From positions 124,001 to 188,000 of the forward strand of contig NZ_JAFKJN010000015.1 in NCBI RefSeq assembly GCF_017305915.1: a DNA stretch of 64,000 nucleotides, given 5' to 3'. Below the pieces are notes generated by a model that was not told the origin of the DNA, searched no databases, and worked only from the letters and a program-made list of their open reading frames with translations. Every line of letters begins with the position of its first letter. Position 1 is the first letter of the stretch. A program made the position numbers and the translations under genes. The stretch is from Reyranella sp. (GTDB taxonomy: Bacteria; Pseudomonadota; Alphaproteobacteria; Reyranellales; Reyranellaceae). Positions 8,130-57,111 of this stretch are shown in pieces.

Positions 8130-9209
8130 ATGGCGAACGACACGTCGCTGGGGGGACTCTTCGCGGGCAATCGCAAGCCGACCCAGTTCGGCCGCATCTT
8201 CAAGCCCGACCCGGCGTGGCTCGCCAAGGCCGAGCCCGAGCCGATCCTCGACCCCGAGCTCGCGGTGGTCGACACCCACCATCACCTGTGGGACATGCCG
8301 GGCTATCGCTATCTGCTCGACGACTTCCTGGCCGACGCGAACACCGGCCACAGGATCGTCGGCACCGTCTTCAACGAATGCCGTGCGATGTACCGCGCCA
8401 GGGGGCCGGAGGAGATGAAGCCGGTCGGCGAGGTCGAGTTCTGCGCCGGCATCGGTGCGATGAGCGACAGCGGGATCTATGGCCCAGCGCGTGTCTGCGC
8501 CGGCATCGTCGGCCACGCCGATCTCACCCTGGGCGACCGCGTCGAGGCCGTGCTCGAGGCCGAGATCGCCGCAAGCGGCCGTTTCCGCGGCATTCGCTAT
8601 GGTGCTGCGTGGGACGACGATCCGGTGATCGGCAACAGCCACGTCGCCAAGGGACCGGGCGTCCATCGCAGCGCCGGCTTCCGCGAGGGGCTGAAGCGTC
8701 TCACCAGGCTCGGCCTGTCGTTCGATGCCTGGATCTTCCATCACCAGGTCGGCGAGGTGACCGAGCTGGCGCGCGCCTTCCCCGACGCCAACATCGTGCT
8801 CTGCCACATGGGCGGCGTGCTGGGCTACGGCCGCTGGGCCGGCAGGAAGGACGAGGTCTACGCCGCGTGGAAGCCGGCGATGGCCGAGCTCGCCAGGTGC
8901 CCCAACGTCTCGGTCAAGGTCGGCGGGCTGATGATGCGGCTGGCCGCCATCGACTATCTCAACCTGCCGCGGCCGCCGACGTCGCAGGAGCTGGCCGACG
9001 CCTGGCGTCCTTACGCCGGCACCTGCATCGAGCTGTTTGGCGCCGACCGCTGCATGGTCGAGAGCAACTTCCCGGTCGAGAAGATGGGCATCGGCTATGC
9101 CGGCCTGTTCAACGCGCTGAAGCGCATCGCCGCCGGCGCCTCGGCCGACGAGAAGAAGGCGCTGTTCAGCGGCACCGCCAGGCGCGTCTATCGGCTGGCG
9201 ATCGACTAG
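8130..9209 (+). CDS. Amidohydrolase family 2 metal-dependent hydrolase
   Basis: This 359-residue TIM-barrel amidohydrolase has the metal-binding DTHHHLWDMPGYRY motif near residue 47, a central FHHQVGE strand near residue 208, CHMGG near residue 229 and the late VESNFPVEK segment near residue 310. The pattern resembles lactonases and decarboxylases of PF04909 such as L-fuconolactonase or LigI-type enzymes. The length is normal. Its TAG stop (9207-9209) is formed by the left end of the palindromic element described at 9206. The real substrate is unknown, but a lactone or aromatic acid fits the neighbourhood. Confidence 0.85.
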   Translation: MANDTSLGGLFAGNRKPTQFGRIFKPDPAWLAKAEPEPILDPELAVVDTHHHLWDMPGYRYLLDDFLADANTGHRIVGTVFNECRAMYRARGPEEMKPVGEVEFCAGIGAMSDSGIYGPARVCAGIVGHADLTLGDRVEAVLEAEIAASGRFRGIRYGAAWDDDPVIGNSHVAKGPGVHRSAGFREGLKRLTRLGLSFDAWIFHHQVGEVTELARAFPDANIVLCHMGGVLGYGRWAGRKDEVYAAWKPAMAELARCPNVSVKVGGLMMRLAAIDYLNLPRPPTSQELADAWRPYAGTCIELFGADRCMVESNFPVEKMGIGYAGLFNALKRIAAGASADEKKALFSGTARRVYRLAID

Positions 9210-9332
9210 AGCGATTTCCGAGCAGATGGAACCGCTCGCGGTTCCATCTGCTCGGAAATGCGCGCACGGGGGTTGTTGTTGCAGCAGGCATATTCCGTTC
9301 GGCTGATTCCAGCCGAACGGAATATGCTCTAG
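9206..9332. repeat. Palindromic extragenic element, copy 1 (two hairpins, CTAGAGC/GCTCTAG ends)
   Basis: A 127-base element is bounded by CTAGAGC (9206-9212) and its complement GCTCTAG (9326-9332). It contains two near-perfect hairpins: a 21-base-pair stem with loop CTCG (about 9214-9259) and an 18-base-pair stem with loop ATTC (about 9288-9327). The same arrangement recurs at 50089-50213, and a shortened version at 55746-55819. Base changes between copies are matched on both sides of the stems. It lies between two convergent genes. Confidence 0.9.
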
Positions 9333-9565: not shown

Positions 9566-10678
9566 CTAGAGCACCCGCGGCGGCGGCAGGCCGAGCAACA
9601 CGGCGCCGCAGACCTCGTAGTTCGCGGGATGCAGCGCCGTGTGCGCGGCGGCGACATGCACGTCGCGGAAGCAGCGGTCGATCAGGCCGGTGCTGTAGAC
9701 CGAGGCGCTGCCCGCCGCGGTGTAGATCAGGTCGGTCGCCTGCACGCCGGCCGTCAGCGCGTTGGCGCGGGCGAGCCGCATCAGCGCGAGCTGCCTGGGC
9801 GGCAGCGTGCGGCCGGCCTGCACGTCGTCCCAGGCCTGCGCCACCGAGTCGTAGAGCCAGGCGCGGGCCGCCTGCAGCACCGCCTCGGCGCGGCCGACCT
9901 CGGCCTGCACCACCGGCTTGTTGGCGACCGCCGTGGTCGAATGGTGCGAGACCTTGGCGCCGGCGATCGCGACGAAAGCGTCGATCGCCGCCCGGCCGAT
10001 GCCGAGCGGCACGGCGGCCATCAGGCTGTCCATCAGCGCCATCAGCGGGAAGCGGTAGAGCGGGTCGTCGAGCCGCGCCGGCGTATCCATGGCGACGATG
10101 CGGTCGGCCGGGATGAACAGCTCCTTGATCGCGTAGTCGTGGCTGCCGGTGCCGCGCATGCCGCCGGTGGTCCAGGTATCGATCAGCTCGCCGTCGCTCG
10201 CCGGAAAGAACACCAGCCGTGTCTTGCCGTCCTCCAGTGTGCAGCCGCCGGCCCACCAGGCGCTGTGACCGATGCCGCTGGCGAACGACCAGCGGCCGTT
10301 GCAGACCAGGCCGCCATCGGCTGCGCGCGCCTTGCCGCTCGGCCGGAGCGCTCCGGCCACCACGGCGTCGGGCGCGCTGTAGATCGCCCGCGCCGTCGCC
10401 TCGCCGAGCCGCGCGGCCCAGACGCCGTAGGCCGAGCCGATCATCAGGTTCCAGCCGGCTGCGCCGTCGGCGGTCGAGATCGTCTCGATCACCTCCATCG
10501 CCGTCATCGGATCGGTCTGCAGCCCGCCGAGGCCGGCCGGGATCAGCAGGCGGAAGAGCCTGGCGTCGTGCATGGCCGCCAGCACGCCGGGCTCGAGGTG
10601 CCGGTGGCGCTCGCCGAAGTCGCGCGTCTCGCGGACCATCGTGGCCAGGCGGCGCGCGGCCGCGAGAAGGTCGTCCAT
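9566..10678 (-). CDS. Acyl-CoA dehydrogenase-like flavoprotein
   Basis: This 370-residue protein has the acyl-CoA dehydrogenase fold: an N-terminal helical domain (LIPAGLGGLQ near residue 48), a middle beta domain with NGRWSFASGIGHSAWW near residue 125 and GMRGTGSHDYAIKELFIP near residue 170, then a C-terminal helical bundle. The GRWSFASG and GTGSHD blocks are closer to flavin-dependent monooxygenases and sulfur-compound oxygenases of the superfamily than to beta-oxidation enzymes. Its start shares one base with the stop of the upstream deacetylase gene, so the two are cotranscribed. Its stop is a TAG inside a CTAGAGC heptamer. A related protein lies at 20008-21204. Confidence 0.8.
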   Translation of the reverse strand: MDDLLAAARRLATMVRETRDFGERHRHLEPGVLAAMHDARLFRLLIPAGLGGLQTDPMTAMEVIETISTADGAAGWNLMIGSAYGVWAARLGEATARAIYSAPDAVVAGALRPSGKARAADGGLVCNGRWSFASGIGHSAWWAGGCTLEDGKTRLVFFPASDGELIDTWTTGGMRGTGSHDYAIKELFIPADRIVAMDTPARLDDPLYRFPLMALMDSLMAAVPLGIGRAAIDAFVAIAGAKVSHHSTTAVANKPVVQAEVGRAEAVLQAARAWLYDSVAQAWDDVQAGRTLPPRQLALMRLARANALTAGVQATDLIYTAAGSASVYSTGLIDRCFRDVHVAAAHTALHPANYEVCGAVLLGLPPPRVL

Positions 10679-30371: not shown

Positions 30372-31928
30372 ATGCGTAGGCTGCTGCTGTCGATGGTGCT
30401 TTGGGCGATCGCCCTGCCGGCTTCCGCGCAAGGCACGCTCCGGATGGTGAGCCACGCCGACCTCAAGATCCTCGATCCGATCTGGACGACGGCCAACATC
30501 ACCCGCAATCACGGCTACCTGATCTACGACACGCTGCTCGCGACCGATGCCGATTTCAAGGTCCAGCCGCAGATGGCCGAGAAGGTCGAGATCTCCGCCG
30601 ACAAGCTCACCTACACCATCACCCTGCGCGACGGCTTGGAGTGGCACGACGGCACGCCGGTCACCCCGGAGGACTGCATCGCCTCGATCAGGCGCTGGGG
30701 CGCCCGCGACGGCTTCGGCCAGCTCCTGCTGCGCTCGACCGCCGAGCTGAAGCCGATCGACGGCAAGACCTTCGCCCTGGTGCTCAAGGAGCCGTTCGGC
30801 CTGGTGCTCGAGGCGCTGGGCAAGGTGGGCTCTAGCGTGCCCTTCATGATGCCCAGGCGGGTCGCCGAGACCGACCCCAACAAGCAGATCGACGACTACA
30901 CCGGCTCCGGCCCCTTCATCTTCAAGAAGGACGAATGGAAGGCCGGCGAGAAGGTCGTCTATGTCCGCAATCCCAAGTACAAGCCACGCCCCGAGCCGCC
31001 CTCCATGCTGGCGGGCGGCAAGCAGGCCAAGGTCGACCGGGTCGAATGGCTCGCCATGCCCGATCCCAACACCGCCGCCAACGCGCTGATCGCGGGCGAG
31101 ATCGACCTGATCGAATCGCCGCCGACCGACCTCCTGCCGCTGCTCAAGGGTTCCAAGGGCGTGGCGCTGTACGGCTGGAACGTGCAGGGCGGCCAGGCGC
31201 TGATGCGCTTCAACCACCTGCAGCCGCCGTTCGACAATCCCAAGGTGCGGCAGGCGGCGATGCTGGCGATCGCGCAGGAGGACTTCTTGCGCGCGCAGTA
31301 CGGCGACCCGGCGCTCTACCGCACCTGCAACGCGCCGTTCATCTGCGGCTCGACTTACGGCAAGGAATACGGCGACTTCCTGATCAAGCCCGACATCGAG
31401 AAGGCCAAGGCGCTCTTGAAGGAGGCGGGCTACGACGGCAAGCCGGTCGTCATGCTGCACCAGACCGACCTGCAGTCGTCCAATCAGTTCCAGCCGGTCG
31501 CCAAGCAGCAGCTCGAGCGCGCGGGCTTCAAGGTCGAGCTGCTGCCGATGGACTGGAACACCGTGGTGGCGCGGCGCTCGCGCAAGGAGGCGCCGGCGCA
31601 GGGCGGCTGGAACATCTTCTTCACCACCAACATCACCATCGACGTCGACAATCCCGGCACCAGCAACTTCGCCGCCGCGAGCTGCGAGAAGGCGTGGTTC
31701 GGCTGGCCGTGCGATCCGGAGATCGAGAAGCTGCGCGCCGCCTTCATCGCCGAGACCGACACGGCCAAGCGCAAGGCGCTGGGCGATGCGATCTCCGACA
31801 AGGTGATGGCGCAGGGCGTCTACGTGCCGATCGGCCAGTATCGCGGCTTCGGCGCCTACCGCAGCGACCGCCTCGACGGCTGGCTGCCCGGCCCGGTCGC
31901 GATGGTGTGGAACATCAGGAAGAGGTGA
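30372..31928 (+). CDS. ABC transporter solute-binding protein, family 5, exported
   Basis: This 518-residue protein has a signal peptide (LLLSMVLWAIALPASA then QGTLR), the N-terminal HADLKILDPIWTTA block, TLRDGLEWHDGTPV near residue 85 and VRQAAMLAIAQEDF near residue 292. The DDYTGSGPFIFKKDEW segment near residue 175 is typical of family 5 binding proteins. It is a separate branch from the 28412 paralogue. It lacks transporter partners in the window. Ligand unknown. Confidence 0.9.
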   Translation: MRRLLLSMVLWAIALPASAQGTLRMVSHADLKILDPIWTTANITRNHGYLIYDTLLATDADFKVQPQMAEKVEISADKLTYTITLRDGLEWHDGTPVTPEDCIASIRRWGARDGFGQLLLRSTAELKPIDGKTFALVLKEPFGLVLEALGKVGSSVPFMMPRRVAETDPNKQIDDYTGSGPFIFKKDEWKAGEKVVYVRNPKYKPRPEPPSMLAGGKQAKVDRVEWLAMPDPNTAANALIAGEIDLIESPPTDLLPLLKGSKGVALYGWNVQGGQALMRFNHLQPPFDNPKVRQAAMLAIAQEDFLRAQYGDPALYRTCNAPFICGSTYGKEYGDFLIKPDIEKAKALLKEAGYDGKPVVMLHQTDLQSSNQFQPVAKQQLERAGFKVELLPMDWNTVVARRSRKEAPAQGGWNIFFTTNITIDVDNPGTSNFAAASCEKAWFGWPCDPEIEKLRAAFIAETDTAKRKALGDAISDKVMAQGVYVPIGQYRGFGAYRSDRLDGWLPGPVAMVWNIRKR

Positions 31929-49891: not shown

Positions 49892-50088
49892 GAGCGCGTC
49901 CCGCTCGCTCATGACTCTTACGCGCGCAGGATGCGCGCGATCCGGAAGAGCTTGACCCCTCCGTCAGAGGAAGGTGGCGGCGCTGTGCGCAACGGCGAGT
50001 TCCTCGGCCTTCAAGGCGCCGGAGGACGCCTTCGCGCTCATCGGCGACGCGGTGGGTTCCGCCGGCGACGGCACCCAGCCCGAAGCCA

Positions 50089-50213
50089 AGAGCGATTTCC
50101 GGGCAGATAGAACCGCTCGCGGTTCCATCTGCCCGGAAATGCGCGCACGGGGGTCGTTGTTGCAGCAGGCATATTCCGTTCGGCTGATTCCAGCCGAACG
50201 GAATATGCTCTAG
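50089..50213. repeat. Palindromic extragenic element, copy 2
   Basis: This is a 125-base copy of the element at 9206-9332 with the same two hairpins and the GCTCTAG end (50207-50213). The left end is AGAGC without CT. Relative to copy 1 the left stem carries a paired change (GAGCAG/CTGCTC to GGGCAG/CTGCCC). Its right end provides the TAG stop of the minus-strand gene at 50210. Confidence 0.9.
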
Positions 50214-50332
50214 CCAAATTGGGCGAAAAGAACGGCCGCGGCGATCGATCCGATGAAGACGGTCCAGAATGCGAAGAGGTCGAGGCGGCTCAGCCACTTC
50301 GCCCGGCGGCGTTCGCGGCTGCGGCGGGCCAT
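50210..50332 (-). CDS. Small single-pass membrane protein, 40 residues
   Basis: The frame MARRSRERRRAKWLSRLDLF then AFWTVFIGSIAAAVLFAQFG gives a strongly basic N-terminus and one membrane helix running to the C-terminus, a typical inside-positive arrangement. Its TAG stop is the end of the palindromic element copy 2. It lies between that element and a CTAGAGC heptamer at 50336. Short but convincing in composition. Function unknown. Confidence 0.6.
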   Translation of the reverse strand: MARRSRERRRAKWLSRLDLFAFWTVFIGSIAAAVLFAQFG

Positions 50333-50400: not shown

Positions 50401-50509
50401 GCCGACCTGTCGCTGACGGCGATCTGTCGCCGCTGACGCCGACCTGTCGCCGCTGACGCCGACCTGTCGCCGCTGACGCCGACCTGTCGCCGCTGACGGC
50501 GACCTGCGG
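50401..50509. repeat. Tandem repeat, 20-base unit
   Basis: Five to six units of GCCGACCTGTCGCCGCTGAC are arrayed head to tail between two minus-strand genes. The first unit lacks three bases and the second and last carry substitutions, while the three central units are identical. The unit length is not a multiple of three, and no gene uses it. Confidence 0.9.
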
Positions 50510-50537
50510 GCGGCAGTCCCGGCTCGATTTCCGGCGG

Positions 50538-55119: not shown

Positions 55120-55165
55120 CTAGGAAATGCGCGCGCGCGGGTGATGTCGGTTTCGCCTGCTCTAG
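55120..55165. repeat. Fragment of the palindromic element
   Basis: GGAAATGCGCGCGCGCGGG and a terminal GCTCTAG (55159-55165) match the middle and right end of the elements at 9206 and 50089, but the hairpins are gone. The GCTCTAG again forms the TAG stop of the minus-strand gene at 55162. Confidence 0.6.
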
Positions 55166-55353
55166 TTGCGGCGGGACAGCGGAGCGACGTAGCGCGAGCC
55201 CGCGCTGTGCTGCGCCTGCTGCATCTCGGCGACAAAGGAGGGATCGACAGCCGCCGGCCGCGCCTGCGATTCCAGGACGACGACGAGGGCCTGAACCAGG
55301 ACCAGGGCGCCGCCGATCATCAGCGCGGCCTGCCGCAAACTACGCCCGCGCAT
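55162..55353 (-). CDS. Small single-pass membrane protein, 63 residues
   Basis: The protein MRGRSLRQAALMIGGALVLV then QALVVVLESQARPAAVDPSF has a basic start, one membrane helix and a polar tail (AEMQQAQHSAGSRYVAPLSR). Its stop codon is formed by a fragment of the palindromic element. It resembles the other tiny membrane proteins of the region in layout but not clearly in sequence. Function unknown. Confidence 0.6.
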   Translation of the reverse strand: MRGRSLRQAALMIGGALVLVQALVVVLESQARPAAVDPSFVAEMQQAQHSAGSRYVAPLSRRN

Positions 55354-55745: not shown

Positions 55746-55819
55746 CTAGAGCACCGGGATGCCTGTTGTGGCAGGCACATTCCGTCCGGCTGATTCCAGC
55801 TGGCCGGAATGTGCTCTAG
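55746..55819. repeat. Palindromic extragenic element, short copy 3
   Basis: This 74-base version is bounded by CTAGAGC (55746-55752) and GCTCTAG (55813-55819) and keeps only the right hairpin. Its stem differs from copy 1 by changes on both sides (for example TATTCC/GGAATA to CATTCC/GGAATG). The right end supplies the TAG stop of the minus-strand gene at 55816. Confidence 0.88.
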
Positions 55820-57111
55820 GTAAGCACGTAGACCGACGTGCGCGCCTGCCAGTCGGTGCCGGTCCACGGCCGCGAATCCGGGCCGACGCCGCCGTGTGAT
55901 TCGACGGTGCGGCCGTTGTGGATCAGCGCGACGTGGCCGATGTTGCTGGGCGAATCCTGCGGCCGCAGGAAGGCGATGCGCACGACGCCGTCGAGGTTCT
56001 GGCCGGCGGCTACGTCGACCTTGGCGAAGCCCTGCGCGCGCACCCAGTCGTGCTGCACCACCGAGCCGTCGGGAAACTGCAGCCGCGGCGGATGCGGTGT
56101 CGCCCGCCGCAGCGCGGCGCGGATGAAGCCGCTGCAATCGACCCTGGTGAAGCCGCCGCTGCCCGGCGGCTGGGTGTCGACCGGCACGATCTTGGCGCCG
56201 AGCCCGTAGCCGACGCGCGGCGTCGACGTGAGGCAGTCTTGCAGGAACTGCTGCACGGCGGGCATGTCGATCTGCAGCGTCGGCACCGCGGCGGGCGGTG
56301 CCGCCGGGGCCGGGCCGTTGGCGGCGGCGATCGCTTCGGCGGTCACGGCGGCGGGTGCGGCCTCGTCGTCGAGGATCGGGCGCGCCGGATCCTGGTCGGC
56401 GGCTTCGGCGAGATTGGCGTTGGCGACCATCAGCGCATGCAACGGCGGCGGCGGCGCGAAATGCGCCGGCGCCAGCGCGGCCAGGCGGCTGAACTGGCCG
56501 AAGTCGGGGCCGTTGACCGCGTCGTCGTCGACATCGACGCCGGCGAGCGGCGGCACGCCGCAGGTCTGGCTGATCTTCCATTGGCGCGATTGGAAATACG
56601 TGCCGTGCTCGGCGAAGCTGCTCGAGCAGGACAGCCAGGTGTCGGTGACCAGCCCGTCCTCGACCAGGCGGCGGCAGACCAGGCCGTCGCTGTAGACGCC
56701 GATGCGGTAGGGCATGGTGCCGTCGGCGCGGGTGAATACCGCCTTCACGGCGGTGAAGTAGGGGACGATGTTGCTGGCGTAGGCCGCGCCCCGCTCGTCG
56801 TAGTCGGCGCCGAAATAGATGGTGGTGCCCTCGGGCTGGCCGACCAGCTCCTGGGCGCATTGCAGGGCGCGGGCGGCGTCGGCCTCGCCGCGCGCCTTGC
56901 TGAACCATTGCGGGGCGTTGCCCCAGAACTGGAAGACCGCCCAGATCGAGATGCCGTGCGCGTGCAGCGCCTGCGCCTCGAGCCGCGTCAGGACCTTCGA
57001 GCCCGAGCCGTAGTTGTAGTAGCGGCCGACCGCCTTGACGCCGGCGGCGGCGAGGCCCGCCGCGGACGAGGTCAGCCGCGTGCTGGCGTCGATGTATTGC
57101 CTGCTGGCCAT
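55816..57111 (-). CDS. DUF1906 glycoside-hydrolase-like domain fused to NlpC/P60-type domain
   Basis: In this 431-residue protein the first half is a Rv2525c-like (DUF1906) TIM barrel: YIDASTRLTSSAAGLAAAGV, GRYYNYGSGSK, EGTTIYFGADYDERG and PYRIGVYSDG. After a proline/alanine-rich linker the second half has a cysteine in RVDCSGFIRAALRRA near residue 330 and a histidine in GHVALIHNGRTVESHGG near residue 395, as in NlpC/P60 amidases. No signal peptide is seen, so export by a phage-like or type VI route is possible. It probably acts on peptidoglycan. Confidence 0.78.
   Translation of the reverse strand: MASRQYIDASTRLTSSAAGLAAAGVKAVGRYYNYGSGSKVLTRLEAQALHAHGISIWAVFQFWGNAPQWFSKARGEADAARALQCAQELVGQPEGTTIYFGADYDERGAAYASNIVPYFTAVKAVFTRADGTMPYRIGVYSDGLVCRRLVEDGLVTDTWLSCSSSFAEHGTYFQSRQWKISQTCGVPPLAGVDVDDDAVNGPDFGQFSRLAALAPAHFAPPPPLHALMVANANLAEAADQDPARPILDDEAAPAAVTAEAIAAANGPAPAAPPAAVPTLQIDMPAVQQFLQDCLTSTPRVGYGLGAKIVPVDTQPPGSGGFTRVDCSGFIRAALRRATPHPPRLQFPDGSVVQHDWVRAQGFAKVDVAAGQNLDGVVRIAFLRPQDSPSNIGHVALIHNGRTVESHGGVGPDSRPWTGTDWQARTSVYVLT

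Follow-up and report, generated by a model that had tools for sequence, protein, structure and literature searches.

A CIR-like two-hairpin repeat of Reyranella probably inserts at CTAG and rebuilds the stop codons in which it lands

We describe a short repeat in a Reyranella genome whose CTAG-bearing ends supply the TAG stop codons of flanking genes. Our main reading, to which we give a probability of roughly three in four, is that a non-autonomous, CIR-like repeat inserts at CTAG, duplicates at least TA and accumulates at stop codons. Comparison with related genomes indicates that the elements land in pre-existing stop codons and rebuild the stop on both sides, so that the normal protein ends are kept. 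The element resembles the CIR repeats already known in Alphaproteobacteria, and the supply of TAG stops by REP ends has been published before.

The window, which is the whole stretch of DNA that was analysed, comprises 64,000 nt at 68% GC from a 6.47-Mb draft genome in 58 contigs. CTAG occurs in it 22 times, GCTCTAG six times and CTAGAGC five times. These heptamers terminate a 127-bp two-hairpin repeat that also has short forms of 70-82 bp, and the unit is laid out as CTAG-A-hairpin 1-linker-hairpin 2-T-CTAG. The window holds two 127-bp copies and one 74-bp short form, together with a probable remnant:

9206-9332, + strand: intact 127-bp two-hairpin element, CTAGAGC...GCTCTAG (sequence reading, BLAST and core comparison)
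9211-9263, + strand: hairpin 1 of this element (DNA fold)
9288-9327, + strand: hairpin 2 of this element (DNA fold)
9305-9309, + strand: GATTC, an instance of the CcrM-type methylation word GANTC, in the loop of hairpin 2
50087-50213, + strand: second 127-bp copy, with a CAAG left end and a GCTCTAG right end (core 96% identical to that of 9206-9332)
55120-55165, + strand: 46-bp probable element remnant, part of the linker between two CTAG (read by eye)
55746-55819, + strand: 74-bp short form, equal to the right half with both ends (sequence reading and pattern)

The heptamers at 9326 and 55746 mark element ends without a facing gene end, and those at 30829, 50336 and 55597 are solitary. A tandem 20-base repeat, CGCTGACGCCGACCTGTCGC, occupies positions 50411-50510, just past the second element. 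Genome-wide, the pattern CTAGAGCN{90,120}GCTCTAG retrieved 38 intact long copies and the short-form pattern eight places, while the heptamer itself has 113 + 101 occurrences that largely mark paired ends. About 40 full-length matches were returned by BLAST, many of them 95-99% identical (40 of 105 candidates scored). Elements at loci L003, L024 and L028 lie about 135 bp from contig ends, and the outer flank common to L003 and L024 indicates that a longer repeat carries an element beside it. Plasmid records contained no match to the element, and no Rfam family scored above threshold within the window.

As single-stranded DNA, the window copy has a predicted folding energy of -52.8 kcal/mol against a shuffled mean of -19.6. 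Covariation was scored on the 35 copies of exactly 128 bp among 42 from three relatives. The 46 predicted pairs were paired in 97.6% of cells in these 35 copies (shuffled mean 87.0%, maximum 88.7%), and 24 pairs have Watson-Crick types that differ on both sides, which is covariation. The fold is kept despite sequence drift, with pairwise identity down to 57%. There was no clear signal beyond shuffling that the two element ends co-evolve. GANTC stands at the hairpin 2 loop in 33 of the 42 relative copies and in 34 of the 38 long copies of the genome itself.

Coding calls were made with a home-made codon model that converged on 221 ORFs with a GC3 of 0.888. Its seed, 13 element-adjacent gene tails plus two window genes picked by eye, brings in a mild circularity that sets codon usage and strand and hardly affects frame counts. 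The element set (40 intact, 59 when enlarged) consists of stretches fetched for holding elements rather than of all genome copies. At least one flanking gene's stop is supplied by 27 of the 40 intact elements, as opposed to 34 of 89 heptamer-free CTAG sites (Fisher p 0.002). In the enlarged set the corresponding figure is 41/59, and seven of the 59 supply two stops (the CAAG end at 50087, which lacks TAG, is not counted). That element ends coincide with stops beyond chance, as the initial annotation supposed, is borne out by the reading frames: of 51 coding frames that reach an element end, 48 do so in the frame of the terminal TAG, where 1 in 3 is expected (p about 1e-19). By side, the left ends gave 22/22 by TAG plus one run-in at the decayed CAAG end, and the right ends 26/28. 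Of the 22 facing frames in the three relatives, 20 agree with that of the TAG; 18 of the 42 elements there provide a stop, compared with 4 of 20 background CTAG sites (p 0.10).

CTAG is seen 22 times in the window, whereas base composition predicts 188 and a Markov model 81. From this rarity it had been argued that coincidence was unlikely. The depletion is real, but the argument turns round: because CTAG is depleted and 38% of element-free CTAG sites are already stops, elements that need CTAG would be found at stops without special targeting. CTAG targeting alone may nevertheless not be the whole story, as elements lie at stops more often than background CTAG does (the p of 0.002 above). TAG is a common stop for a genome of 68% GC, ending 234 of 540 confidently coding genes, 49 of them in CTAGAGC, but as the stretches had been selected for the presence of elements, these figures are no genome rate.

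In the window, the TAG of the heptamer had been put forward as the in-frame stop of five genes. This stands for four of them, whose stops are element ends, one belonging to the remnant:

8130-9209, + strand: amidohydrolase-family gene (PF04909); its TAG stop is the left end of element 9206-9332
50210-50332, - strand: 40-aa ORF; its TAG stop is the right end of copy 50087-50213
55162-55353, - strand: 63-aa ORF; its stop is the TAG of remnant 55120-55165
55816-57111, - strand: gene with an Rv2525c-like glycoside-hydrolase-like domain (PF08924); its TAG stop is the right end of the 74-bp element

The TAG of the first gene, at 9207-9209, lies within the left end of the intact 127-bp element. Neither the 40-aa nor the 63-aa ORF matched a Pfam or NCBIfam family. 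The fifth case, 9566-10678 on the - strand, was rejected as an element-end stop: AGC lies on the gene side, the last codons read GTG CTC TAG, and the opposite side carries no element, the heptamer at 9566 being part of the gene's own coding sequence.

The outer bases were tabulated in 49 copies found by their core alone. Left of TAG the base is C in 48 and T in one, and outside the right CTA it is G in 43, A in four, T in one and C in one. TA is present at both ends in 47 of the 49, the exceptions being the left end of the window copy that reads CAAG and the right end at locus L039, which reads CCAG. At locus L038, the TTAG on the gene side recurs in the orthologue at L227 and the far side reads CTAG; the far-side C would thus come from the element, and the duplication would therefore be shorter than 4 bp. 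We infer from these junctions that a duplication of 2 or 3 bp (TA or CTA) is favoured over the full 4-bp CTAG, since the outer bases of the two ends can differ. At the junction, CTAG stands once in empty sites and twice in filled ones, a count that comes from few clean alignments. The YTAR target of IS5-type elements would fit the insertion words of this element.

The enzyme that would mobilise the repeat was not found among one Y1 gene, 23 DDE_Tnp_1 loci and IS1380. None of the 23 DDE_Tnp_1 loci, drawn from four genomes, has the element's ends as terminal repeats; unlike IS-derived MITEs, the element has no parental IS with the same ends among them. IS1380 was rejected as mobiliser, being present here as a single copy and missing from the element-bearing genomes G043 and G012. 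The RAYT was likewise set aside: it is the sole Y1 transposase gene found in the genome, and the palindromes that flank it are others.

Two further, unrelated mobile units of this genome were seen at stop codons. A 1,614-bp IS1380-family IS (L151:1126-2739; NF033539, 399 bits) has CTAGCCCGGATATC ends with CTAG and sits between convergent genes, its terminal TAGs being the stops of both. A 632-bp RAYT cassette (L073, about 1394-2025; NF047646) is bounded by palindromes of other sequence, GTAGTCTT...AAGACTAG, and its outer bases are the TAG stops of both flanking convergent genes.

The alternative that survives best, though we consider it unlikely, is that a Y1 (HUH) transposase cleaves single-stranded DNA beside the foot of the hairpin and places the element 3' of an nTAG word, with the association to stops arising as in GTAG REPs. 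Such a route would suit the two inverted hairpins, the TAG-containing word at each foot and the strong covariation, and in the excerpts of PMC3733652 used here the termini of GTAG REPs likewise often provide the TAG stop of flanking ORFs. The outer base is also more tolerant on one side than on the other, but this asymmetry is not significant (p 0.11). The frames fit equally at both ends, which one-sided insertion with no duplication would not by itself give, and the only Y1 transposase gene found has different palindromes around it. The likeness to GTAG REPs/BIMEs and their RAYT, so far as those excerpts describe them, consists in hairpins with a TAG-containing foot word and in crowding at the 3' ends of convergent genes. 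A GTAG REP, however, is a 20-40 bp palindrome with an unpaired GTAG at one end, whereas the element is a fixed 70-128 bp two-hairpin unit with CTAG at both ends; and a RAYT gene is flanked by the same repeat in that system, whereas the RAYT of this genome is not.

It is more doubtful still that the elements are retained for a function, such as terminating transcription in both directions between convergent genes or exposing GANTC for methylation. The very stable predicted hairpins, the seven elements between two stops and the GANTC conserved in one loop would agree with such a role. In the copies read, however, no T-run follows the hairpins, and 42 of 61 genomes of the genus have no intact long copy by pattern (counts 0 to 42), so that no copy is generally required.

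Insertion into existing stops can be told from capture of 3' ends by genes that lack the element. C-terminal tails of element-flanked genes were searched in four genomes of the same genus; once one query (L012_L) and all matches shorter than 45 aa or below 60% identity had been removed, there were 81 orthologue rows, covering 29 of 38 gene ends. In 47 of these rows the element-free orthologue ends at the same residue, and in 64 it ends within 2 residues; the end falls elsewhere in 34, and is more than 2 aa away in 17. The same TAG, which the initial annotation had taken as counting against its proposal, ends 28 of the 47, and the other 19 stop at the same residue with TGA (13) or TAA (6), which would require that the TAG arose in this lineage before, or with, the insertion. 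At locus L017, all four of four orthologues have a non-TAG stop. The TAG share of the 47 does not differ significantly from that of the other genes of the same loci (89/190; p 0.14).

When joined element flanks were aligned to relatives, 16 alignments crossed the junction, most of them not clean, being gapped or unclear at that point. Clean single-CTAG empty sites with both flanks aligned were obtained for L040 against L252 and L254, and for the 70-bp element L132:3001 against L245. At the same L132 junction, L235 has a TGA stop instead, and in L242 there is direct overlap between the two genes that border element L127. For window gene 8130-9209, the relative L045 reads gaCTAGcccgtctcg and the window gaCTAG-element-CTAGccgtttcg. 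In L044, L057 and L238, unrelated palindromes (TGATCATGCTC..., TGATCTTCCGG... and ATGATCTTCCTCCC..., respectively) lie at or beside the TGA stop of genes orthologous to element-flanked ones, which for L044 and L057 means window gene 8130-9209.

These orthologues and single-CTAG empty sites support insertion into existing stops, the first of the two routes that the initial annotation had offered. The second, in which an element inserts near a gene end and its TAG becomes the new stop and sets a new C-terminus, is very improbable and, to judge from the orthologues, largely refuted: although the TAG is indeed part of the element end and not all orthologues have the same length, frames would be random where nearly all fit, most orthologues stop within 2 aa, and the stop is already present at the empty sites.

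A covariance model run with strict filters recognised this build in 10 of 288 other genomes of the class, every hit lying outside the genus; two same-genus genomes in the draw gave no match. Of 13 such out-of-genus loci read by eye, 12 have GANTC, and five have a long GC3-rich frame that stops at the terminal TAG. Loci from other alphaproteobacterial families, including L214, L215, L217 and L226, have the two-hairpin build with other stem sequences and often CTAG ends. In genome G038, units of about 130 bp consist of two smaller CTAGAGC...GCTCTAG palindromes and a short A+T-rich linker, a different arrangement.

In the excerpts used here, CIR repeats (Caulobacter CcrM-associated intergenic repeats) are described as having two long inverted-repeat arms and a linker, GANTC at the loop of one arm, TA termini, a length of little over 110 bp and a class-wide distribution (PMC2229807), and as strictly intergenic (PMC10969869). 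Likened by description rather than by sequence comparison with CIR1-CIR4, the element shares the two arms and linker, the GANTC in one loop, the TA termini and the presence across Alphaproteobacteria; it differs in length (127-128 against about 110 bp) and in its CTAG ends and stop-codon placement, which are absent from the CIR descriptions in those parts of PMC2229807 and PMC10969869. TA-duplicating MITEs (ERIC, RUP and Correia), as outlined in the same part of PMC2229807, are likewise short and non-autonomous with TA termini, but the element is not A+T-rich and has a separate hairpin at each end rather than one terminal stem. A search of open-licence literature for CTAG elements at stop codons gave nothing closer than PMC3733652.

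In the reading that we prefer, the heptamers would be the termini of a non-autonomous mobile repeat of CIR-like build, two hairpins joined by a linker. It would insert at the short palindrome CTAG, less often at CTAA or TTAG, and duplicate at least TA, so that TAG would stand at both ends. CTAG is rare in the GC-rich genome, and many of the remaining sites are stops, some common to two convergent genes (C-TAG, or CTA-G on the opposite strand). Insertion at a CTAG stop would rebuild TAG on each side and not alter the protein; a copy landing at a CTAG within a gene would disrupt that gene and hence be lost. An element that seeks CTAG and is eliminated wherever it disrupts a gene would therefore accumulate at stops. 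More speculatively, CTAG stops, above all those shared by convergent genes, might be a general neutral landing pad in such genomes: the unrelated CIR-like repeats, IS1380-family IS and RAYT cassette could each have come to use stop-rebuilding TAG ends, with stop make-up shaping target choice, a generalisation that we hold to be possible rather than probable.

The 2013 remark on REPs (PMC3733652) now has orthologue and empty-site evidence behind it. That such repeats crowd at the 3' ends of genes would be explicable without a regulatory job, and the element suggests a rule for harmless multiplication in a gene-dense genome: aim at a word that is rare except at stops, and carry that word at both ends.
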